From Bacillota bacterium (lineage in GTDB: Bacteria > Bacillota > Sulfobacillia > JAJZYS01 > JAJYTV01), in the NCBI GenBank assembly GCA_021793645.1, contig JAJYSJ010000014.1:1-61449 (forward strand): a stretch of 61,449 bases of DNA, in the 5' to 3' direction. This document shows positions 43,810 to 56,098 of this stretch, piece after piece. Each line of letters starts with the position of its first letter. Position 1 is the stretch's first letter. Position numbers and translations under genes: made by a program. A model generated the notes under the pieces. It searched no databases. It was not told the origin of the DNA and was given only the letters and a program-made list of their open reading frames with translations.

Positions 43810-44192
43810 TGTCCGTCACCTCCGTACAGCCGTTGGCTCGCCTCCAAGAACGCGTCCCGCAGGGTCGTCAGGACGGAAAGGACGGGCGCAAGGCGCTGAA
43901 CGTCCTTTTGGACATTCGCCTCCATCAGTTCCTGCCTGCAGTACAGCAAAAGCGACACGAGGTTGTCTGCTCCGGCGAACTGGCGGTCTTGCGCCTGCCC
44001 TTCCGCCAAAGCAGAGAGCACGTCCTGGCTCGCGACGAGATTGCGGTGGGCCTCCTCGAGCCGGCCCGCCTGGATGGCGCGCTGCGCGATCAGCACGGAC
44101 TGGACGAGCTGGTCGTACACTGCGACGACGGCGTTTTCCGCACTCGGGACTTCACGCGCGTAGGTCTTGTAGAGGTCTTCGGCCCGTCTCAC
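43806..44192 (-). CDS. fliS: FliS, flagellin chaperone
   Basis: A 128-residue FliS. The typical elements are the N-terminal YKTYAREVPSAENAVVAVYDQLVQSV (usually Y..n.v.ta.p..Li.mLYdg) and the C-terminal helix with LLLYCRQELMEANVQKDVQ. FliS binds the flagellin C-terminus before export. Overlaps the glycosyltransferase-like gene upstream by 4 bases. Confidence 0.9.
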   Translation of the reverse strand: MRRAEDLYKTYAREVPSAENAVVAVYDQLVQSVLIAQRAIQAGRLEEAHRNLVASQDVLSALAEGQAQDRQFAGADNLVSLLLYCRQELMEANVQKDVQRLAPVLSVLTTLRDAFLEASQRLYGGDGQ

Positions 44193-45757
44193 TGCAGTGC
44201 GCCTCCCTCAATCTCTTGACCGGTCCCTAGCAGTCCGAGGCTCTTTGCGACGCGCCGGGGCGTCTCCAGAAGGTCGGTGTCCACCGTGAGGGGGGCTCCG
44301 GCATAGTGGGTGTGCTCAAGGTCATGCCAAAGCGCGTCGGCCAGTGCGGGCTCGCCACATCTGCGTGCGAGCAGCGCGCCGAGGTAGAGGTCGATCGGAG
44401 CGTCCAGACTCCCGAGCGTCCCGAGCTGCCGTTTGGACGGACGTTCTGACGAGAGGATGGCTTGCCAGGCCGTGAGCTGCTTTGCTGCCTGTTGGGGAGT
44501 GTTGAGGATCAAAAAGCGCGCGTCCGGAGCCGCGTCCCCGGCGAGCAGGATGCGGGCGACGGCCAGGATTGCCGGCGCGCTGGACTTCTCCGACATGCGG
44601 GCAAGCACTTCTGGCCGGCCGTGCGCGCATTGCGCGAAGACGGTCGCGAGGGCGAAGGAGTGCGGCATCTGTTCGAGACCCACCCGGGCGATTTCCGACG
44701 CCGCATCGAATGCCCCCGCGTTCGCGAGCTGTCCCGCCGCGCGCGTATAGGAGCTCTCCCAGCGTATGGGGGAGCGCAGAACCTGCCGGTTGCCCGCGCG
44801 CTCCACGAGCGCGCAGGACCAGAGCAGGTGCGTCACGCCCTGCGAGAGGTCGCCCCGATCCAGTTCGCTCGAGCCGAGCAGGAACCAGGCGTCGGATGAG
44901 AGCGGGAAGTTTCCCACGACGAACTCGCAGGCGCGGTGCGCTGCGTCCAGGTCCTTGCACTCGAGGGAGGCTTCCGCGAGGTAGATGCCCAGGGCCTCGG
45001 CGAAGGAGGGCGTCTCCGGCAGCGCCATGATGATGCCCAGCCCCTCCTCGAGGTACGCCTTGGCCTTCGGGAAGGCGAAGACGCGCTGGTATTCGCGCCC
45101 CAGCTGCATCAAGAGGTACGCCCGATAGTCGGGCGGCGGCGATTCGGCGAGACCGGCCTCCAGGAGATCGAGGTTGCGCTGCACCTTGTTGCGGTCCAGG
45201 ACGACGCTGGGGTCGTAGCCGTAGTGATCGAGCTGGATCTCGCTTTCAAAGATGAGACCGCGTTTGGACACGGCCGGAAAGATTTGTTCATGAATTCTCT
45301 GCTGGAAGCGGTGGGCCGGGTGATTGCGGAAGACCCGCAGCGTACGCACGACGTCCATGGGCGCAGTGCGCTTGGGATCCGAACCGAGCCTGCGGTTGAG
45401 GATCTGTACGTTCATGCCCTGAACATCCGGGCGAACCAGCGGGAGATGCCTTCTCATCCACTGCGCAGACTGCGGGGTGAGCCGCTCGTCCGCATCCACT
45501 ACGAGGATCCACTCGCCACGCGCGTGCTCGAGACCTGCGTTGCGCGCTGCGGAAAAGTCGTCCTCCCAGGGATGCTCTACGACGCTCGCACCCAGTTCGC
45601 GTGCGATGTCCGGGGTACGGTCGGAAGATCCCGTGTCGACGAGGATCACTTCTCCGCCGAGGGCGGCGACCGATTGGATGCACTCGCCGATCATCGCCGC
45701 TTCGTCCTTGGCGATGATGCAGGTGGAGACGAGGGGCCTTCTTCCGGCAACTGCCAT
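44189..45757 (-). CDS. family 2 glycosyltransferase with TPR-like repeats, probably modifies flagellin
   Basis: A 522-residue protein. The N-terminal GT-A domain (about 8-220) has STCIIAKDEAAMIGECI, LVDTGSSDRTPDIA and the DxD-type motif VVDADERLT. The rest is helical and TPR-like. ATG 45757 has AGGAGG upstream. It lies directly downstream of flagellin and overlaps fliS, so it most likely adds sugar to flagellin, as TPR-glycosyltransferases in such loci do (context inference). It lacks a membrane helix, fitting a cytoplasmic step before export. Confidence 0.85.
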   Translation of the reverse strand: MAVAGRRPLVSTCIIAKDEAAMIGECIQSVAALGGEVILVDTGSSDRTPDIARELGASVVEHPWEDDFSAARNAGLEHARGEWILVVDADERLTPQSAQWMRRHLPLVRPDVQGMNVQILNRRLGSDPKRTAPMDVVRTLRVFRNHPAHRFQQRIHEQIFPAVSKRGLIFESEIQLDHYGYDPSVVLDRNKVQRNLDLLEAGLAESPPPDYRAYLLMQLGREYQRVFAFPKAKAYLEEGLGIIMALPETPSFAEALGIYLAEASLECKDLDAAHRACEFVVGNFPLSSDAWFLLGSSELDRGDLSQGVTHLLWSCALVERAGNRQVLRSPIRWESSYTRAAGQLANAGAFDAASEIARVGLEQMPHSFALATVFAQCAHGRPEVLARMSEKSSAPAILAVARILLAGDAAPDARFLILNTPQQAAKQLTAWQAILSSERPSKRQLGTLGSLDAPIDLYLGALLARRCGEPALADALWHDLEHTHYAGAPLTVDTDLLETPRRVAKSLGLLGTGQEIEGGALQ

Positions 45758-47651: not shown

Positions 47652-48284
47652 TCAGAGCCCCCGGAGTTGCTGCAGCCGCTTGCGCTCTTGGCGCAGGACA
47701 TAGGCGATGACCCGGTCCTGATCCTTTTCGGAGATCTCCAAAAAGTCGAACCCGACCAGCCGGCTGCGGTAGGGACCATCGCCCGTGCGGACGGCGTACA
47801 TCCGGACCGCCACCAGCGGGCCCTGGCCCAGGGAGAGCATCGCCTCGACGACGTCGCGGTGCAGGATCTGCGTTTCCGGCGGACAGTGTGCCAGAAGGCC
47901 GCAGCCGGAGAGGTCTAGTGCGCGGCAGGCCCGGTCGCGGATGGTCAGCGGCAGATCCACAGGCGTCCGATGGAAGCGGCGCTTGGCGAAGCGGTCGACC
48001 TGCGTCGGCACGCGCGCCACGAGTTCGCCCCCGGCGGTGGTGCCGATGATCGAGAACTCAGCGACGAGCGTCGCCATATCCGCTTCACTGCGGGCGATCA
48101 GCCGGGTGCCCGGCGGGTAGGCGTTAGGGAGGCCCCGCTGCCTCTTATCCGGACTGAGGATCAGCAGGCCGTCCTCATATCGGGATAAGATGATATGCAG
48201 GACGTCTGTGCCCTCCTGCTCGATGCGCTCTAAGGAAAGCCGAGCCCCTACCGGAAACGCTTGCACCGATTCCAGGGAATCCAC
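47652..48284 (-). CDS. YcgR-like PilZ domain protein (cyclic-di-GMP receptor)
   Basis: A 210-residue protein with an N-terminal PilZN/YcgR-N barrel (about 10-95) and a C-terminal PilZ domain. The cyclic-di-GMP motifs are intact: R102-xxx-R106 in FAKRRFHRT and D124-x-S-x-x-G129 in LDLSGCG. Proteins of this type slow flagella when cyclic-di-GMP rises, by touching stator or C-ring. It stands alone between flagellin and the divergent chemotaxis operon. The GTG start has a run of G just upstream. Confidence 0.92.
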   Translation of the reverse strand: MDSLESVQAFPVGARLSLERIEQEGTDVLHIILSRYEDGLLILSPDKRQRGLPNAYPPGTRLIARSEADMATLVAEFSIIGTTAGGELVARVPTQVDRFAKRRFHRTPVDLPLTIRDRACRALDLSGCGLLAHCPPETQILHRDVVEAMLSLGQGPLVAVRMYAVRTGDGPYRSRLVGFDFLEISEKDQDRVIAYVLRQERKRLQQLRGL

Positions 48285-48508
48285 CCCCCCAGCACTGTAA
48301 AGGTGGCCAGCATTACATGAATGTGGAATTGTGTCGATTTTTCGCAGGATTTATGCTGCGCACGACAGAACCTAAAAACGCCAATGACTCCATCTGAGCC
48401 CAGGGTAGCACCCAAGGACGGTCTGGGGAAGCGCAATATATGAGACGCATGCCGGATTGACTCCGTGGCAGCGATCTCCTATTCTCACGCGCAACGGAGG
48501 TGCGATAC
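48285..48508. other. divergent intergenic region between the PilZ gene and the che operon
   Basis: About 220 bases with no gene. It holds the sigma-A-type promoter of the chemotaxis operon at its right end. A promoter for the PilZ gene should lie at its left end but I cannot single one out. Confidence 0.6.
48457..48485 (+). promoter_or_regulatory. sigma-A-type promoter of the chemotaxis operon
   Basis: TTGACT (48457-48462), exactly 17 bases, then TATTCT (48480-48485). Transcription would begin near 48492, leaving a leader of about 17 bases with the GGAGG ribosome site at 48496-48500. This is the clearest housekeeping promoter in the window. Confidence 0.75.
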
Positions 48509-48922
48509 ATGCCTGAGGATCCAATGCTGAGCCAGGCGGAAATCGACGCGCTTCTGCGCAGCCTGGGTGAGGCGGCGGAGACTCCGCAGGTCGAGGAAGT
48601 GCCAAAGGCCCCGGAGCCCTATGCGCCACTGGAAGTGGCGCGCCCGGCTACGCCCCGCACACTTCCCGAAGGCATCGAGATGCTGCTGGGCGTCGAGGTG
48701 ACTTGCAGCGTGGACCTGGGCGAGATGGAACTGGAATTCGGGGAGCTCCTTTCGCTTGGTCGCTCGTCGCTCGTCGTGCTGAGCGGCACGCTCGACGCCC
48801 CATTCGTGCTGCGGGTCAACGGTGTGCCGTTCGCCTATGGCACGATCGTCGAGACGAATGGGCGATACGGCCTGCGCATCATCGAGCTCGCGCAACCGCA
48901 GGAGGAGGCACACGCGTCTTGA
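48509..48922 (+). CDS. short FliN-type switch protein carrying the CheY-docking motif
   Basis: A 137-residue protein with a FliM-type N-terminal motif MLSQAEIDALLRSLGE (residues 6-21), a Pro/Ala linker, and a C-terminal SpoA/FliN domain (LLGVEVTCSVDLGEMELEFG, VNGVPFAYGTIVETNGRYGLRI). EIDALL is known to bind phosphorylated CheY in FliM and in Bacillus FliY. Here FliM and the FliY-like protein lack it, so this gene probably links CheY to the C-ring. ATG 48509 is preferred: GGAGG lies 8 bases upstream. First gene of the che operon; overlaps cheX. Confidence 0.9.
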   Translation: MPEDPMLSQAEIDALLRSLGEAAETPQVEEVPKAPEPYAPLEVARPATPRTLPEGIEMLLGVEVTCSVDLGEMELEFGELLSLGRSSLVVLSGTLDAPFVLRVNGVPFAYGTIVETNGRYGLRIIELAQPQEEAHAS

Positions 48923-49383
48923 AGGTCGAGTGGATCAATCCCTTTATCCGCGCCGCGAACCACGTCCTCGGTGAGATGGTCTCCTTCGAGCACCCGCAGC
49001 TTGGGCGCATCGAAATGGAGGAGAAGCCCTACACGACCGAGGAAGTGACTGCCATGCTCGGCGTCAGCGGCGTCCTCTCCGGTTCGGTGCTGCTCGGCAT
49101 GACAAGGGACGTCGCGGAGCAGATCGTCGAGCGGATGGTCGGCGAACGCACTCCGATCGAAGATCTGCTCGGCGAGTCGGCGCTCGGCGAGGTTGTGAAC
49201 ATGATCTCCGGCTCTGCGCTCCGCTTCCTGGAGAGTGCGGGCTATTCGTGCAACATCACCCCGCCCGTCGTCATCCGCGGCCAGGGCGCGGTCGTCTCGA
49301 CCATGGAGCGCCAGCGCCTCGTGGTCCCCATCCACTTCCCTACGGCTGTCTTCCAGCTCTCCGTCGCACTTCGGCAAGCCTAA
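48919..49383 (+). CDS. cheX: CheX-type CheY-P phosphatase
   Basis: A 154-residue CheX. The single active-site helix with paired Glu and Asn is present: ESALGEVVNMISGSAL. The N-terminus (VEWINPFIRAANHVLGEMV) is typical. CheX removes phosphate from CheY. TTG 48919 overlaps the upstream stop by 4 bases. Together with CheC at 53248 it gives the pathway two phosphatases. Confidence 0.92.
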   Translation: MKVEWINPFIRAANHVLGEMVSFEHPQLGRIEMEEKPYTTEEVTAMLGVSGVLSGSVLLGMTRDVAEQIVERMVGERTPIEDLLGESALGEVVNMISGSALRFLESAGYSCNITPPVVIRGQGAVVSTMERQRLVVPIHFPTAVFQLSVALRQA

Positions 49384-49406
49384 GGACCCGCAAGGAGGGA
49401 AGCGCC

Positions 49407-50474
49407 ATGCGGCGAATGCGGCTTGACGCCTCAGCCATCGGCATGGTGGTCGCGGAGCCGCCGACGGACCAGACTGGACGCCCACTTGTGGCTCCCGGCT
49501 CGACGCTCGATGCGGAGACCCTCGAGCGGCTGCGCCTGGCCGGCGTGCAGAGGGTCGCCGTCGACGACCCTGCCTTCCAAGACCTGCGCTTCGCGAGCCT
49601 CGTCTCACCCGAGACCCAGCGGCTGGCCCTCGCCGTCTTCGCCGAAGTACGCGAGCGCGTGCGCGCGCATCCCGAGACGCCGGTGCTGCGGGCGCCGTTC
49701 CACCGGCTGGCCCAGGCGGTGATCGAGGATGCGAACGACCTGCCGCTGGACCATGCGTCGTACCTCGAGCCGGCCAACATGGTTCAGCGCGACGCTGTGC
49801 ACGCGCTGAACCGGGCGAGCCTTGCGGTGCGCCTCGCGGGACACCGCGCCATGGGACGCTACCTCTCGGACCTCACCTACGCGGCCCTCACCTGCGACCT
49901 CGGCATGCTGCTGACACCGGAGGACCTGCGCATGCGTGATCCTCTCACCCCCGAGGAGTGGGAGGCAATCCGCGAGCACGTACCGGTCGGACTGCGCTTC
50001 CTCGATGCGTCCGAGGGCTGGACCGCCGTCACGCGCACGGCCGTCGGCCAGCACCACGAGCGGCTGGACGGCAGCGGATACCCGCAGGGCCTGCAGGCCG
50101 CCCAGATCCACCCGACAGCCGCGCTCCTCATGGTCTGCGATGTGTACGCAGCGATGCTCCTGCCGCGTTCAGACCGTCCGGAACTGACGCCGGAGGAAGC
50201 GCTTGCGGAGGTCGTCGGCTCCGCGGGCGCAGAGCTCGACTACGATCACGTCGCAGCCTTCCACCGCATGGTGCCGCCCTACCCCGTCGGCACCGAGGTG
50301 GAACTCTCGACGGGCGAGCGGGCCGTCGTGCTGAGTGTGCCGGCGAACCTCAAGTCCCGCCCGGTTGTCCGGGTGTTCCAGGATCGCGACGGCAACCGCC
50401 TGCAGCCCTGGTCCGAACTGGATCTCAGCGAGCGGGCGCAGCAGACGACGACCGTGGTCCGCGTCATCGCATAG
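49407..50474 (+). CDS. degenerate HD-GYP domain protein
   Basis: A 355-residue protein started at ATG 49407 behind AAGGAGGG. The HD-GYP core is recognisable: LTPEEWEAIREHVPVGLRFL and QHHERLDGSGYPQGL (from residue 216) are kept. The metal-binding HD pair, normally HDIGK, reads CDLGM at about 162-166, so one metal-binding His and the Lys are lost. It is therefore unlikely to hydrolyse cyclic-di-GMP normally and may be a binding or scaffold protein. Flanking N- and C-terminal parts are not recognised. Located between cheX and cheY. Confidence 0.85.
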   Translation: MRRMRLDASAIGMVVAEPPTDQTGRPLVAPGSTLDAETLERLRLAGVQRVAVDDPAFQDLRFASLVSPETQRLALAVFAEVRERVRAHPETPVLRAPFHRLAQAVIEDANDLPLDHASYLEPANMVQRDAVHALNRASLAVRLAGHRAMGRYLSDLTYAALTCDLGMLLTPEDLRMRDPLTPEEWEAIREHVPVGLRFLDASEGWTAVTRTAVGQHHERLDGSGYPQGLQAAQIHPTAALLMVCDVYAAMLLPRSDRPELTPEEALAEVVGSAGAELDYDHVAAFHRMVPPYPVGTEVELSTGERAVVLSVPANLKSRPVVRVFQDRDGNRLQPWSELDLSERAQQTTTVVRVIA

Positions 50475-50500: not shown

Positions 50501-50860
50501 TTGGCGAAAATTCTTGTTGTCGACGACGCGATGTTTATGCGCAGCCGGCTTCGCGGACTCCTGGAGGGCGCGGGCCATGACGTGACCGAGGCGCCCAATG
50601 GCAAGGAAGCGGTGGACCGCTTCACGGAGCTGCAGCCGGATCTTGTCTTGATGGATGTGACCATGCCGGAAATGGACGGGCTGGAGGCGTTGAAGCGCAT
50701 CCGCGCCGCGTCTCCCACCGCCCGCATCATCATGTGCTCTGCGCTCGGTCAGCAGTCGATCGTGCTCGAGGCGATCAAGGCTGGAGCCAAGGATTTCATC
50801 GTCAAACCCTTCCGCCCGGAAAAGGTGCTCGAGGCGGTCGGGCGGCAGATTCCGAGTTGA
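50501..50860 (+). CDS. cheY: CheY response regulator
   Basis: A 119-residue single receiver domain. Acidic pocket DD in ILVVDDAMFM, phospho-acceptor Asp52 in LVLMDVTMP, Thr/Ser at CSALG and Lys in DFIVKPFRPE are all present. TTG 50501 follows GGAGGG. When phosphorylated by CheA it should dock on the EIDALL-bearing FliN protein of the same operon. Confidence 0.96.
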   Translation: MAKILVVDDAMFMRSRLRGLLEGAGHDVTEAPNGKEAVDRFTELQPDLVLMDVTMPEMDGLEALKRIRAASPTARIIMCSALGQQSIVLEAIKAGAKDFIVKPFRPEKVLEAVGRQIPS

Positions 50861-50886: not shown

Positions 50887-51360
50887 ATGAGCGACGATGG
50901 GGAACTGCAGTTCGTACTCTTCGAGATCGAAGGAGTCCACTACGGCGTAGAGGTCGAGCGCGTGCTCGAGATCATCGCCCGTCCGGAAATTAGCCGCGTG
51001 CCGTCTGCCTTGGACTGCGTCGAGGGTGTCATCAACCTGCGCGGCAACGTCCTTCCGGTGATGGATCTGCGCATGCGCTTTCGCCTGGGCGGCGATGCGG
51101 CGAAGGCGACCCACATCGTCATCGTGCAGCTGCAGGGCGCCCTCGCCGGCATCTCCGTCGACGGCGTCTCGCAGGTGGTGCGCATCCCGATCGCCTCGAT
51201 CGAACCGGCGCCGCCTGCGATCACCGGGCCGCAGGTGCGCTACATCGAAGGCATCGCCAAGCTCGAGGGGACGCTCTGCGTACTCATCGACCTGGATCGC
51301 GCCTTCCGTCCCGAGGAACTCGCACTAGGCGCGGCAGGGGGTGATCTCGATGGCCGCTGA
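50887..51360 (+). CDS. cheW: CheW coupling protein (second copy)
   Basis: A 157-residue CheW with LFEIEGVHYGVEVERVLEI, RVPSALDCVEGVINLRGNVLPVMDL and a C-terminal LCVLIDLDRAF strand. It lies directly before cheA with a small overlap, indicating it is the core coupler of the receptor array. The copy at 4756 is more divergent and tied to one receptor. Confidence 0.95.
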   Translation: MSDDGELQFVLFEIEGVHYGVEVERVLEIIARPEISRVPSALDCVEGVINLRGNVLPVMDLRMRFRLGGDAAKATHIVIVQLQGALAGISVDGVSQVVRIPIASIEPAPPAITGPQVRYIEGIAKLEGTLCVLIDLDRAFRPEELALGAAGGDLDGR

Positions 51361-53251
51361 CGGAGGCTGGACGCTCACAGACGACGATCGCCAGCTGTTC
51401 TTCGCCGAGGCGGAGGAGATGGTGCAGACGCTCGAGGAGGGTGCCCTCGCGCTGGAGCGCGGTGGCGAGAACCCCGAGATGCTGCAGGCCATGTTCCGGG
51501 CCGCCCACACGCTCAAGGGCAACTCCGGCCTTGTCGGCGAGGCCGGCATCGCCGGCCACATGCACCACATGGAGGCGCTCCTCGACGACCTGCGCGAAGG
51601 TCGGGTGGCGGTGACGCCCGCACTCGTGCAGCAGGTGCTCTCGGGCATCGACGCATTGCGCGAGATGCTTGCCCAGTTCGCGCAGGGCGTCTCGCCAACC
51701 GCGGCCCCGCAGGCGCCGGCGGTGCCTCTGGCAGAGGGCGAGGCGCCAACAGCCGCGATCGGGCTGCCGCGCTACGTGGTGCAACTCGCCGTCGATCCGT
51801 CGTGCGCCATGCCTGCCGTACGGGTCTTCCAGGCCTACCAGGCACTTTCGCGCCTGGGCCTCGTCGAGCGTACCGACCCGCCGCAGGACGGCCTTGCACG
51901 GTTTGAGGGACGCAGTGCGACGGTCATCGTGCGCCTGCAGCGCCCGGATGACGTCAAGGAGGCCCTGGCGGACGTCGACGAGATCCAGCTGGAGAGCGTG
52001 CAGGCGGAGTCCGTAGTGGCGGCCGCAGCGCCGATGGCGCAGTCCGCCGAGGCTGAGCGCGAGGCGGCGACCCAGACCGTTCGCGTGCGCGTCGACCTCT
52101 TGGACCACTTGATGAACCTTGTCGGGGAGCTGGTGCTGGACCGCACCCGCGTCGCGGATCTGGTGTCCCGCCTCGATGGCGGCAAGGACGAACAGAGCGA
52201 AGAGGTCCGCCAGGAGCTCTCGCGCTCTTCGCTGCATCTCGGGCGCGTCACGCTCGACCTGCAAGAGACGATCATGAAGGCGCGCATGCTGCCGATCGAA
52301 CACCTGTTCCGCCGCTTCCCGCGCCTTGTCCGGGACTTGGCGGCGAAGTCCGGCAAGCGCATCGCGCTCGACATCTACGGCCAGGACACCGAGCTCGATC
52401 GCATGGTCATGGATGAGCTCGGCGATCCTCTGACCCACATCTTGCGCAACTCCGTCGACCACGGCATCGAGCCTCCGGAAAAACGCCTGGCCGCAGGCAA
52501 GACGGAGGAGGGGCACATCATCCTGCGCGCCTCCACCGAGGAGGGCTACGTCGTCGTCGACGTCGTGGACGACGGCGACGGCATCGACGCCGAGGCGGTG
52601 AAGCGCACGGCCCTAAGGCGCGGCGTCCTGACGCCGGAGCAGGCGGAGCGCATGACGATGCGCGAGGCGCAGGAGCTGATCTTCGCACCCGGCTTTTCGA
52701 CGTCGGAGGAGGTAACCGAGATCTCCGGGCGGGGTGTCGGGCTGGATGCGGTGCGCGCGTCCCTCGAGCGCCTGTCGGGTGTCGTCGACCTCGTCACGGA
52801 AGCGGGGAAGGGCACGACCTTCCGCCTGCGCATCCCGCTGACGCTGGCGATCATGCGCGCACTGATGGTGCGCACAGGCGACTCCGTCTACGCACTGCCG
52901 CTGGGCGCCGTGCGCCAGATCGTCCGCCTCAACGCGCAGAACGTCCAGGTCGCCCATGGCCGCCCGCTGCTCGCCGACCGCGGCGAACTGATCGGGCTGC
53001 TCTCGCTGGCGGAAATCTACGGCGAGCCGGGGCGGCAGGACGAGACGTTCGCGGTGGTCGTCGGCGCCGGCGAGCGACAGGTGGCGCTGAAGGTGGGGGC
53101 GCTCCTTGGCGAGCAGGAGATCGTCCTCAAGGCGTTCGGAGACTTCCTGGGCGCGGTGCCGGGCCTCACCGGAGCGACGATCCTCGGCAACGGGGAGCTT
53201 GCCCTCGTCGCAGACGTGCGCTACTTCCTGCGCGGCAAGGAGGCGTCGTGA
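51350..53251 (+). CDS. cheA: CheA histidine kinase
   Basis: A 633-residue CheA. P1 phosphotransfer domain has His53 in FRAAHTLKGNSG; a P2-like region is at about 140-225; P3 dimerisation, P4 kinase (N box LRNSVDHGIEPPEKRLAAGK, G boxes VDDGDGID and GRGVGLDAV) and P5 CheW-like domains follow. It phosphorylates CheY and CheB. ATG 51350 has GGGGGTGA upstream; a GTG at 51341 is possible. Overlaps cheC by 4 bases. Confidence 0.97.
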   Translation: MAADGGWTLTDDDRQLFFAEAEEMVQTLEEGALALERGGENPEMLQAMFRAAHTLKGNSGLVGEAGIAGHMHHMEALLDDLREGRVAVTPALVQQVLSGIDALREMLAQFAQGVSPTAAPQAPAVPLAEGEAPTAAIGLPRYVVQLAVDPSCAMPAVRVFQAYQALSRLGLVERTDPPQDGLARFEGRSATVIVRLQRPDDVKEALADVDEIQLESVQAESVVAAAAPMAQSAEAEREAATQTVRVRVDLLDHLMNLVGELVLDRTRVADLVSRLDGGKDEQSEEVRQELSRSSLHLGRVTLDLQETIMKARMLPIEHLFRRFPRLVRDLAAKSGKRIALDIYGQDTELDRMVMDELGDPLTHILRNSVDHGIEPPEKRLAAGKTEEGHIILRASTEEGYVVVDVVDDGDGIDAEAVKRTALRRGVLTPEQAERMTMREAQELIFAPGFSTSEEVTEISGRGVGLDAVRASLERLSGVVDLVTEAGKGTTFRLRIPLTLAIMRALMVRTGDSVYALPLGAVRQIVRLNAQNVQVAHGRPLLADRGELIGLLSLAEIYGEPGRQDETFAVVVGAGERQVALKVGALLGEQEIVLKAFGDFLGAVPGLTGATILGNGELALVADVRYFLRGKEAS

Positions 53252-53781
53252 TACCAAAGGAACCGGTGGAGCACGACCCGACCGGCCTGCAGGACGCGCT
53301 CTCGGAACTGCTCGGCGTCCATGTCGACCTGCAGGAGAGCGCTCCGCAGCGCTACGCCCTGCGCGACATCCCGAACCTGGCCGGGCCGGCGGACAGCTCG
53401 GCCGTGGCCGTGTACCTGAGGGCAGCCGGGGTATTCCAAGGGCAGATCCTCCTGATCTTGCCGCCGCAGAGCGCCCGGCGGATCGGCGACCTGATGCTCG
53501 GTCCCGGCAAGTCGAGCGAGCACGTCCTCGACGCCTGCCGAGAGCTTGGGAACATCGTGGCATCGCGCTATCTGTCCCGGATGGCAGATGCCATTGGAGG
53601 GCGCGCAATTCCCTCGACGCCCCTTTCTACAGTGGATATGGCGGGTGCGGTGATCAGTTCAGTGCTGCAGCGCGCAAGCCACGATCCAGTGGTGCACGCC
53701 ATCGAGCTGCGCATGCAGGCGGCGGGGGACGCGATCCGCGGCACCGTACTCGTACTCCAGGACCAGACAAGCGAGGCATAG
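53248..53781 (+). CDS. cheC: CheC-type CheY-P phosphatase
   Basis: A 177-residue CheC. The N-terminus matches the family (LQDALSELLGVHVDL), and one active-site helix CRELGNIVASRYLS retains Glu and Asn; the usual second site is not evident. CheC dephosphorylates CheY and is stimulated by binding CheD, encoded next (1 base apart). The GTG start overlaps cheA. Confidence 0.9.
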   Translation: MIPKEPVEHDPTGLQDALSELLGVHVDLQESAPQRYALRDIPNLAGPADSSAVAVYLRAAGVFQGQILLILPPQSARRIGDLMLGPGKSSEHVLDACRELGNIVASRYLSRMADAIGGRAIPSTPLSTVDMAGAVISSVLQRASHDPVVHAIELRMQAAGDAIRGTVLVLQDQTSEA

Positions 53782-54249
53782 ATGGTAAAACGCACACCAG
53801 TGGGACTCGGTGAACTGTGCATCAGTGCGGATCCCCATGAGCGCCTATGCATCTTTGGCCTCGGTTCCTGCATCGCCGTCTACCTCTACGCACCTGGAAC
53901 ATCGGCAACCGCTCTGGCGCACGTCGTCCTGCCGGAGAGCCAGGGGCGTCCAGGGGAACCGGGGCGCTACGCCGACACAGCGGTGCCCGCACTGGTCGCC
54001 GGCCTGCGCAGCCTGGGGCATGAACCGCACCGGCTGCGTGCGGCCATCGCCGGAGGCGCAGCGGTGCTGGGCTTCACAAGTGAGATCGGGCAGCAGAACA
54101 TTCGGGCGGTACGGCGCTACCTCGAGGACTTTGGAATCCCCGTCGTCCAAGACGACACGGGAGGAATCCGCGGCCGTTCGGTGGAGTTCGATCCGCAGGG
54201 TCAGCACATCGAGGTGCGGGTGCTCGCTGCACCGCAGGTGTCGATTTAG
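53782..54249 (+). CDS. cheD: CheD receptor deamidase
   Basis: A 155-residue CheD. The catalytic Cys30 (FGLGSCIAVYLY) and His47 (LAHVVLPES) are present, and GGAAVLGF and IGQQNI fit the family. CheD deamidates glutamines on chemoreceptors and regulates CheC. It is directly downstream of cheC, the usual pairing. Confidence 0.95.
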   Translation: MVKRTPVGLGELCISADPHERLCIFGLGSCIAVYLYAPGTSATALAHVVLPESQGRPGEPGRYADTAVPALVAGLRSLGHEPHRLRAAIAGGAAVLGFTSEIGQQNIRAVRRYLEDFGIPVVQDDTGGIRGRSVEFDPQGQHIEVRVLAAPQVSI

Positions 54250-54282: not shown

Positions 54283-55335
54283 TTGCTGGATAGATCGCTC
54301 CGCGTACTGATCTGTGATGACTCGGCGCTCGTGCGGCAGTTCCTGGCGCATGCCCTCGAGGGGGTACCGGGGATCGAAGTGTGCGGGCGAGCCACCGATG
54401 GGGAAGAGGCAGTGCGCCTTACCCGCCTCCTCCGCCCCGACGTCGTGACCATGGACGTCGAGATGCCCCGCCTTGACGGCATCTCCGCGGTCCGCAGGAT
54501 CATGACCGAGTCCCCCACCCCGATCCTGATGGTGTCGAGTCTCACGACGGAGGGGAGCCGCACCACGATGGCGGCGCTCGAGGCAGGCGCCCTGGACTTC
54601 ATCGCGAAGCCGCAGGGACGCGGCGATCTGCATCAGATCGGTCCGCTGGTGGCGGAAAAGATCCTTCAACTGGGCGAGCGCGGCGGCCTCGTGCTCGCCG
54701 CCGGTCCCGCGTTCGCCGCCAGTCCCGCGCGGGGAAGGATTGCGCCGCCCGCCCTTGGCACTCCGCCCCTGGTCGTGATCGGCTCGTCGACCGGTGGGCC
54801 GCGGGCCCTTTTCAGTGTGGTGCCGTACCTGCCGGCGGGCTTCCTCGCACGGGTGATCATCGTGCAGCACATGCCGCCCGGTTTCACGCGCTCCCTCGCC
54901 GAACGCCTCCATGAAGCGGGGCCGCTTCCCGTGAAGGAAGCGGAGGATGGGGAGCCGCTGCACCCAGGTACGGTCCGGGTTGCGGCGGCGGGGCATCACC
55001 TTCAGGTCGACGGCCACGTCCTGCGCTACGCAGACACTGCGCCTGAGCATGGTGTGCGCCCGGCACTGGACGTCACGCTGCGTTCGGCAGCGCAGAGCTA
55101 CCGCGGGCCGATCGTGGTCGCGGTGTTGACCGGCATGGGGCGCGATGGCGCACTGGGCGCCCAGGAAGTGCGCGAACATGGGGGCAAGGTGATTGCGGAA
55201 TCGGAGCGCACCGCCCTGATCTACGGCATGCCGAAGGCGGTCGTGGACCTCGGGGCCGCCGACAGCGTACAGGACCTGCCCGATGTCGCGGGCGAGATCG
55301 TGCGCCTGTGCGCGGAGCTCTCGAATGCCCACTGA
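54283..55335 (+). CDS. cheB: CheB receptor methylesterase
   Basis: A 350-residue CheB. An N-terminal receiver (LICDDSALVRQFL, TMDVEMPRLDG) is joined to the methylesterase domain with Ser in GSSTGGPRAL (about 168), His in VQHMPPGFTRSLAERL and Asp in TGMGRDGALGAQ. It removes methyl groups from receptors. TTG start. Overlaps cheR by 11 bases. Confidence 0.97.
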   Translation: MLDRSLRVLICDDSALVRQFLAHALEGVPGIEVCGRATDGEEAVRLTRLLRPDVVTMDVEMPRLDGISAVRRIMTESPTPILMVSSLTTEGSRTTMAALEAGALDFIAKPQGRGDLHQIGPLVAEKILQLGERGGLVLAAGPAFAASPARGRIAPPALGTPPLVVIGSSTGGPRALFSVVPYLPAGFLARVIIVQHMPPGFTRSLAERLHEAGPLPVKEAEDGEPLHPGTVRVAAAGHHLQVDGHVLRYADTAPEHGVRPALDVTLRSAAQSYRGPIVVAVLTGMGRDGALGAQEVREHGGKVIAESERTALIYGMPKAVVDLGAADSVQDLPDVAGEIVRLCAELSNAH

Positions 55336-56098
55336 CGACTACGAGGCATTCCAGGAGGCCGTGCTCCGGGTGATGCACCTCGACCTGCGGCTTTACAAGC
55401 GAGAGCAGATGGAGCGGCGGCTGCGCGCCTACGGTCAGCAGCACGGCTTTTCAGATCTCAAACAGCTTGCAAAGGCACTCGGGTCTGAGGCTGCCTTGCC
55501 GCAGCAGCTGCTCTCCTACCTGACCATCCATGTCTCGGAATTCTTCCGTGACCCGCGCTTTTTCGAGCAGCTGCGTGCGCTGTTGCCGCAGCTGCCGGGA
55601 GCGCCGCATGCCCTGCGCGTCTGGAGTGCCGGCTGCTCGATCGGGGCAGAGGCCTACAGCCTCGTGATGCTGCTCTCCGAAGAGCGGCCGGGTCAGCCGT
55701 ATCAGGTGCTCGCGACCGACCTCGATGACCAGAGCCTGGACAAGGCGCGACGCGGACTCTATCGCGAGGAGGAGCTGCGGCAGGTCGACCTGGGGCGGCG
55801 CAGGCGCTACTTCGCCGCGGAGGGGAAGGAGTTCCGCATCCGGCCCGACCTGCAGCGCTCCATCACCTTCCGTCACCATGACCTCCTTGCCGATCCGTAC
55901 CCTGCAGAACAGGACCTGATTCTCTTCCGCAACGTCGCGATCTACTTCACCGAGGAGGCCAAGGACCAGGTGCTGCACGGGCTCGCACGCTCGCTCGCCG
56001 CACAAGGCATCCTGATGGTCGGCTCCACGGAAGCGATTCTGCGGCCCCAAGACTATGGGCTGAGGCAGGTCCGTCCGTTCTTCTTCGTCCGGGTCTAG
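55325..56098 (+). CDS. cheR: CheR receptor methyltransferase
   Basis: A 257-residue CheR started at ATG 55325 within the end of cheB. The N-terminal helical domain precedes the SAM-binding part, with VSEFFRDPRFFEQL, RVWSAGCSIGAEAYSLVM, ATDLDDQSLDKARRGLY and ILFRNVAIYF. It methylates glutamates on chemoreceptors. Uses S-adenosylmethionine. Confidence 0.97.
   Translation: MPTDDYEAFQEAVLRVMHLDLRLYKREQMERRLRAYGQQHGFSDLKQLAKALGSEAALPQQLLSYLTIHVSEFFRDPRFFEQLRALLPQLPGAPHALRVWSAGCSIGAEAYSLVMLLSEERPGQPYQVLATDLDDQSLDKARRGLYREEELRQVDLGRRRRYFAAEGKEFRIRPDLQRSITFRHHDLLADPYPAEQDLILFRNVAIYFTEEAKDQVLHGLARSLAAQGILMVGSTEAILRPQDYGLRQVRPFFFVRV

Follow-up and report, generated by a model that had tools for sequence, protein, structure and literature searches.

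Why would a chemotaxis operon keep an HD-GYP protein whose catalytic motifs are altered? The question is raised by the window (the whole 61,449-nucleotide stretch analysed, contig JAJYSJ010000014.1 of a Bacillota bacterium), in which a gene at positions 49407-50474 (+ strand) encodes a degenerate HD-GYP protein of 355 amino acids with the pattern CD...DLGM...HHERLDGSGYP. The first-pass annotation had described HHERLDGSGYP as intact, the HD pair as CD and the DIGK motif as DLGM, and all three readings were confirmed in the 355-residue frame (C163-D164, M167 and residues 216-226). It had also proposed that the metal centre should be broken and that the protein has been retained for a binding or regulatory role, claims that we take up below.

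The HD-GYP gene and its operon

The gene starts with an ATG at 49407 and ends with a stop codon at 50472-50474; a strong Shine-Dalgarno-like element read from the sequence, AAGGAGGG (49392-49399, +), lies 7 bases 5′ of the ATG. The codons of C163-D164-L165-G166-M167 occupy 49893-49907 (+), with TGC for C163 at 49893-49895 and ATG for M167 at 49905-49907, and align with H221-D222-I-G-K225 of PmGH; those of HHERLDGSGYP (residues 216-226) are found at 50052-50084 (+). Pfam recognizes HD_5 (1.7e-19, 70.6 bits) and HD (7e-6), both above cut-off, and no PAS or Cache domain was detected in the 355 residues by Pfam at 0.01. No model specific for che-operon HD-GYPs was found in Pfam or NCBIfam, and the sole NCBIfam match of the protein is far below its cut-off.

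The gene order is fliN-cheX-HDGYP-cheY-cheW-cheA-cheC-cheD-cheB-cheR, with all genes on the + strand. The fliN-type C-ring gene (48500-48922; FliMN_C, 5.8e-15) is followed by cheX, of the CheY-P phosphatase family (48919-49383; CheX, 6.7e-18), which ends 23 bp upstream of the HD-GYP gene, and cheY (50501-50860; Response_reg, 4.7e-33) begins 26 bp downstream of it. Further downstream, Pfam identifies cheW (50887-51360), cheA (51341-53251), a cheC-like gene (53248-53781; CheC, 9e-5, barely above cut-off), cheD (53782-54249) and cheB (54283-55335), while cheR (55283-56098) is named by its position after cheB and by homology between related loci. Divergent from the operon, in a YcgR-like place, is a gene for a PilZ-domain protein (47652-48284, −; PilZ, 1.6e-6) that is conserved in the loci of the window family; its product is a possible second c-di-GMP receptor adjoining the same che operon. 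A family 2 glycosyltransferase, perhaps one acting on flagellin, is encoded at 44189-45757 (−), between fliS and the flagellin gene.

An orthologue of the window protein is present in nine of the ten genomes of the window family; the tenth, 76% complete, contains only a paralogue. The other eight orthologues are 61-79% identical to the window protein. All nine are full-length and in frame, carry CDLGM and are flanked by cheX and cheY, so both the location between these genes that had been noted from the window alone and the cysteine, whose conservation in orthologues had been proposed as a check, extend to the whole family. Within the genus, dN/dS of the HD-GYP gene is 0.16-0.37, compared with 0.065-0.30 for cheX and 0.06-0.15 for cheY (six pairs each). 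The gene is thus under purifying selection within the genus, and since CD/M is in addition fixed in all nine genomes, this state is not due to chance. The nine orthologues and the dN/dS values rule out a recent mutation or a pseudogene.

Five of the ten family genomes encode a paralogue of the window protein (L050-L054) with AD-[IV]-GM and 47-52% identity, with no che genes near it in the stretches read. A further degenerate HD-GYP gene occurs in two family genomes (L145:12683-13696 and L147:12864-13871), ca. 6 kb from an intact HD-GYP gene.

Altered residues and predicted fold

PmGH of Persephonella marina (4mcw/4mdz/4me4) is an active tri-iron phosphodiesterase with the same fold as the window protein. 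The two sequences were aligned, with residue numbering and roles taken from the available text of PMC4159591. The window protein keeps six of eight metal ligands of PmGH: H189, D222, H250, H276/H277 and D305 correspond to its H132, D164, H191, H216/H217 and D245. The altered positions are H221 (C163), K225 (M167), D308 (A248), D183 (V126) and E185 (R128). The last three changes had been overlooked by the first-pass annotation, and both D308 and D183 are needed for PmGH activity. The loop G284-Y285-P286 is retained as residues 224-226; among the nucleotide contacts, Y285, I294 (I234) and R314 (R254) are identical, and K317 is replaced by arginine (R257).

Among the mutants described in the same paper (PMC4159591), alanine substitution of H221, K225, D183 or D308 leaves PmGH essentially inactive, but activity is not abolished in Y285A, R314A or K317A. 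Because the PmGH mutants at the corresponding positions are inactive, the window protein should, by analogy, be catalytically dead. The earlier statement that the metal centre should be broken is too strong: with six ligands remaining, the site may be partly preserved. In the available text of PMC4159591, the PmGH crystal subunit with uncut c-di-GMP contains only the G-site iron. We use the label “G-side” for H250, H276 and H277, assigned by elimination, the ligand-to-metal assignment being incomplete in that text.

An AlphaFold2 model of the window protein built from 31 sequences has a mean pLDDT of 82, with blocks of residues 121-290 at 80-98; the model is poor past residue 290. A first model built from six close sequences (pLDDT 57.5) was discarded. 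The model is silent on subtle changes of the metal site, since active-type HD-GYPs encoded on viral contigs make up most of the added rows. Its closest fold match is Bd1817 (Z 22.3, 214 residues, 3.0 Å), followed by c-di-GMP-bound DvhD (Z 20.3, 185 residues, 3.0 Å), PmGH (Z 18.1, 184 residues, 3.5 Å) and PA4781 (Z 17.4, 184 residues, 3.6 Å); Foldseek was also run on the model. By sequence, the closest PDB chain is that of DvhD (4.4e-10). The N-terminal domain of the model (residues 1-55, 49407-49571) resembles a piece of MoeA (1xi8, 54 residues, 1.4 Å) and also a piece of an RNA polymerase subunit (9m7y), and RNA polymerase was matched by profile as well.

Bd1817 of Bdellovibrio (3tm8 and others) is a catalytically inactive HD-GYP that, as described in the accessible part of PMC4159591, is without the GYP tyrosine and whose di-iron centre is covered by a closed lid. 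The window protein has the opposite pattern: the tyrosine is kept (Y225) and the HD pair is lost, so it is not degenerate in the Bd1817 manner. The proposed functional analogue is DvhD (BfsD) of Desulfovibrio vulgaris (9rbz/9rc0), an HD-GYP with SQ in place of HD and MN in place of HH which, according to the accessible part of PMC13090378, binds c-di-GMP without cutting it and switches shape. Like the window protein, DvhD has a broken HD dyad and keeps the GYP tyrosine and the arginine that follows. Four of the eight DvhD canonical-site contacts are identical in the window protein in an alignment read by eye (Y621, R650, M646 and L577, corresponding to Y225, R254, M250 and L180), and four differ (Y652 is D256, K582 is W185, E668 is A273, and Y523 falls at about R128). 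The architectures are different, however. DvhD, which controls an adhesin protease, is a membrane-bound protein that carries dCache and PAS domains and has kept the DIGK lysine but not HH, whereas the 355-residue window protein is encoded in a che operon, has HH intact and has lost the lysine; having neither PAS nor dCache, it is not a DvhD orthologue by that feature.

Che-operon HD-GYPs in the phylum

A 20-row profile was searched against 154 class genomes and a sample of 398 genomes taken across the phylum, and gene neighbourhoods were read for the higher-scoring matches, a subset of all those listed. An HD-GYP gene was called che-linked if a gene no more than 1,600 bp away and in the same orientation matched any of the che proteins of the window, CheY excepted. 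Partial-profile rows, identical rows and non-che rows below 235 bits were dropped before counting. Two of the low-scoring rows dropped, G005_L147_12762 and G006_L145_12581, are degenerate, with M at position 221, L at 225 and either T or A at 308; K and D are retained in the others seen. We also excluded from the non-che count the paralogues, G143 and G015_L057, all of them degenerate and encoded outside a full che operon.

K225 is retained in none of 38 che-linked proteins and in 77 of 83 others, and D308 in none of the 38 and in 82 of the 83 (D or E). In a later batch, neither residue was retained in six che-linked proteins, and both were present in all 14 non-che proteins (D or E at 308). 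Pooled, K225 and D308 are absent from all 44 che-operon HD-GYPs found, while elsewhere K occurs in 91/97 and D/E in 96/97; Fisher p-values, calculated for the first set of 38 and 83, assume independence of related genes and are descriptive only. The GYP loop and its surroundings behave in the opposite way: H250, H276, E278, G284, Y/F285 and P286 are present in 38/38 and H277 in 37/38. Outside this core, H189 is kept in 27/38, D222 in 35/38 and D/E305 in 36/38, and of the nucleotide-contacting positions, R314 is kept in 23/38 (being lost or gapped in whole lineages otherwise) and K/R317 in 26/38; the window family as a whole retains the equivalents of both R314 and R317. The window protein, which lies in a che operon, has lost K225 and D308 and keeps the GYP motif, therefore has every defining feature of this che-operon lineage.

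Position 221 of the 38 che-linked proteins is H in 16, C in 11, Q in 4, S, K and M in 2 each and L in 1; D183 has likewise disappeared from many che-operon members. The idea that only the HD dyad is broken is thereby ruled out, the losses common to che-operon HD-GYPs being those of K225 and D308. The HD histidine was replaced afterwards and more than once (by C, S, K, M, L or Q). The change from HD to CD, which had been given together with DLGM as the ground for a broken centre, is old and conserved but is not at the root. Orthologues with an intact HD had been named as a counter-test; every family member has CD, and deeper che-operon homologues do keep HD (the 16 of 38), though they are degenerate elsewhere.

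In other lineages, the usual gene order is cheA-cheC-cheD-cheY-cheB-cheR-HDGYP-cheX or cheY-HDGYP-cheX. A cheX gene is located within 200 bp of the HD-GYP gene in 21/32 cases, and cheR adjoins it in most of the others. In some genomes, genes after the HD-GYP gene resemble, by eye, flgM/flgN/flgK or fliW. In family f26 (L267, L269), the cheX-adjacent HD-GYP is without H189 and D305, yet keeps HHE...GYP, D222 and H250. A contig labelled Brachybacterium (L039) encodes an HD-GYP identical to that of a Bacillota MAG (L040) and is probably mislabelled or from a mixed bin.

Profile A1 was built mostly from che-operon members and carried a risk of circularity; since it could have found only proteins resembling them, a CheX-first search was made. 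CheX matches were obtained in 78/154 genomes of the class. We read 60 CheX neighbourhoods, all from the class and chosen by us from ca. 120 listed matches with those already covered omitted. The majority had no HD-GYP gene; six further che-operon HD-GYPs were found, all without K225 and D308. In G015, a cheX-like gene that stands alone has an HD-GYP gene with both residues ca. 0.85 kb away; as no other che gene matched, this HD-GYP was scored as non-che.

The che operon is not the sole home of degenerate HD-GYPs, since the AD-type paralogue of the window family, G143, a CD-GYP of G015 and one protein each in G005 and G006 are encoded outside full che operons. The G015 CD-GYP gene (L057:6688-8332, −) is directly preceded by a receiver-domain gene, with no other che gene matched, and its change from His to Cys is apparently independent.

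A tree of 120 rows was calculated by a quick method with columns 183, 221, 225 and 308 removed; some end branches are long. A strongly supported branch (99*) separates 82 non-che rows from the other 38, which comprise 32 che rows of the tree and, as copies read to have escaped from che operons, four paralogues, G143 and G015. The che row G239 attaches at the base of the other 82 through a weak branch. The fewest changes on the tree are four for the che label, six for K225, four for D308 and six for H221. A single origin of che linkage is likely from these data but not proven, because G239 falls with the other 82 across the weak branch. Cysteine occupies 221 in three groups that lie apart on the tree (the window family, G015 and G229/G297), and G371 also has it.

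Possible roles in chemotaxis

The proposal of a binding or regulatory role stands as the best reading of these comparisons, the change being old and conserved and the enzyme predicted to be dead. In its specific form, namely that a catalytically dead HD-GYP is kept as a c-di-GMP-responsive, DvhD-like regulator of the chemotaxis or flagellar machine, we give it about an even chance. On the evidence of the PmGH mutants, the kept contacts and the DvhD precedent, the window protein would trap c-di-GMP and signal to a chemotaxis partner. In favour of this reading, the host also has 9 GGDEF and 5 EAL domains and other HD-GYPs, and a PilZ gene adjoins the operon. An old HD-GYP lineage of the phylum would have been captured by the che operon, lost phosphodiesterase activity and been retained as a regulatory subunit. 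The nucleotide would still be held by the GYP loop with R254/R257 and by the G-side metal-site residues (D222, H250, H276 and H277); with K225, D308 and the HD histidine gone, it would be trapped and not cut. Bound and free forms would differ in shape or dimer state, altering contact with a chemotaxis protein encoded nearby, for which CheX or CheY are candidates in the window operon and CheR in many other lineages, and cellular c-di-GMP would thereby tune steering or adaptation. The data themselves show the sequence changes, their conservation, the che linkage across the phylum and a predicted fold; loss of catalysis, nucleotide binding, metal retention, the partner and the direction of the effect are what we infer here. 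Nucleotide binding cannot be what unites all che-operon HD-GYPs, given the incomplete retention of R314 and K/R317; it may hold for the window family and not for every member. The 16 of 38 che-linked proteins that keep the HD histidine may still bind two metals, which counts against this reading, as do the four differing DvhD contacts and the degenerate HD-GYPs encoded outside full che operons.

A comparable logic is known from Pseudomonas aeruginosa, where, in the part of PMC6370697 available, the PilZ adaptor MapZ links c-di-GMP to chemotaxis via CheR1. The window protein may work similarly, as a c-di-GMP receptor acting on a core chemotaxis protein, but MapZ has an unrelated PilZ fold and the likeness is one of analogy. 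“Group alpha” che clusters of Geobacter encode an HD-domain protein (PMC2577667, available in part), a member of the HD superfamily in a che cluster, as in the window; in that text it is described as plain HD, and the comparison is by description. No account of a che-operon HD-GYP lineage was found in the accessible portions of the open-licence literature.

The main rival, which we consider doubtful, is that the protein only makes contacts: its fold and rigid metal/GYP core would offer CheX, CheY, CheR or the C-ring a surface on which to dock, with no nucleotide bound. The guanine-binding R314 is missing in 15/38 che-operon members, the gene neighbours described above are tightly conserved, and the receiver gene of G015 directly precedes that for the CD-GYP, all of which would suit a scaffold. 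A mere scaffold would, however, have no need of the phosphate-contacting GYP loop, kept in 38/38, or of R314 and R317, kept throughout the window family.

It is unlikely that the dead domain instead regulates c-di-GMP enzymes, by associating with an active protein of the HD-GYP, EAL or GGDEF kind and changing its activity. Such a role was suggested for the degenerate NosR of Burkholderia (PMC12570481), and there are candidate partners: the host genome has 9 GGDEF, 5 EAL and 8 HD_5 matches and, judged by these domains, both makes and degrades c-di-GMP. Yet the linkage is to che genes, and no c-di-GMP enzyme gene was noted in the che operon of the window.

We regard as very unlikely the possibility that the protein is still an enzyme, with a cysteine ligand in an altered metal site and another substrate, e.g., as a nucleotide or CheY-P phosphatase. 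The six remaining ligands, the ability of cysteine to bind Zn or Fe and the appearance of Cys at 221 in three places of the tree are in keeping with such activity, but D183, K225 and D308 have been lost, and the cysteine gives way to Ala in the paralogue and to S, K, M, L or Q in other lineages. That the operon tolerates the gene as a disappearing relic is hardly credible and largely refuted by conservation: the protein does change faster than CheY and, in most pairs, CheX, but it is full-length in all nine family genomes, under purifying selection and preceded by a strong ribosome-binding site, and its GYP core is phylum-wide.

Returning to the c-di-GMP-responsive regulator, a broader and more tentative proposal, possible but short of probable, is that the che operons of this phylum carry a c-di-GMP receptor class of their own, an HD-GYP recruited once that lost catalysis at the base and would couple c-di-GMP directly to CheR, CheX or CheY; the cysteine of the window family may then provide a single-metal, substrate-trapping or redox-tuned site. 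CheY-like proteins that bind c-di-GMP are another route from this messenger to swimming. If the proposal is true, a further route would stand beside them and beside PilZ adaptors and brakes.

Dead HD-GYPs have been known singly (Bd1817, DvhD, NosR). Here a whole che-operon lineage, spread over many families of one phylum, is missing the same two residues yet still has the GYP core, which cautions against annotating che-operon HD-GYPs as phosphodiesterases. If these proteins do not bind c-di-GMP, they would be a clear case of an enzyme turned scaffold; if they do, the messenger that decides between swimming and settling would have a built-in link to the steering pathway.
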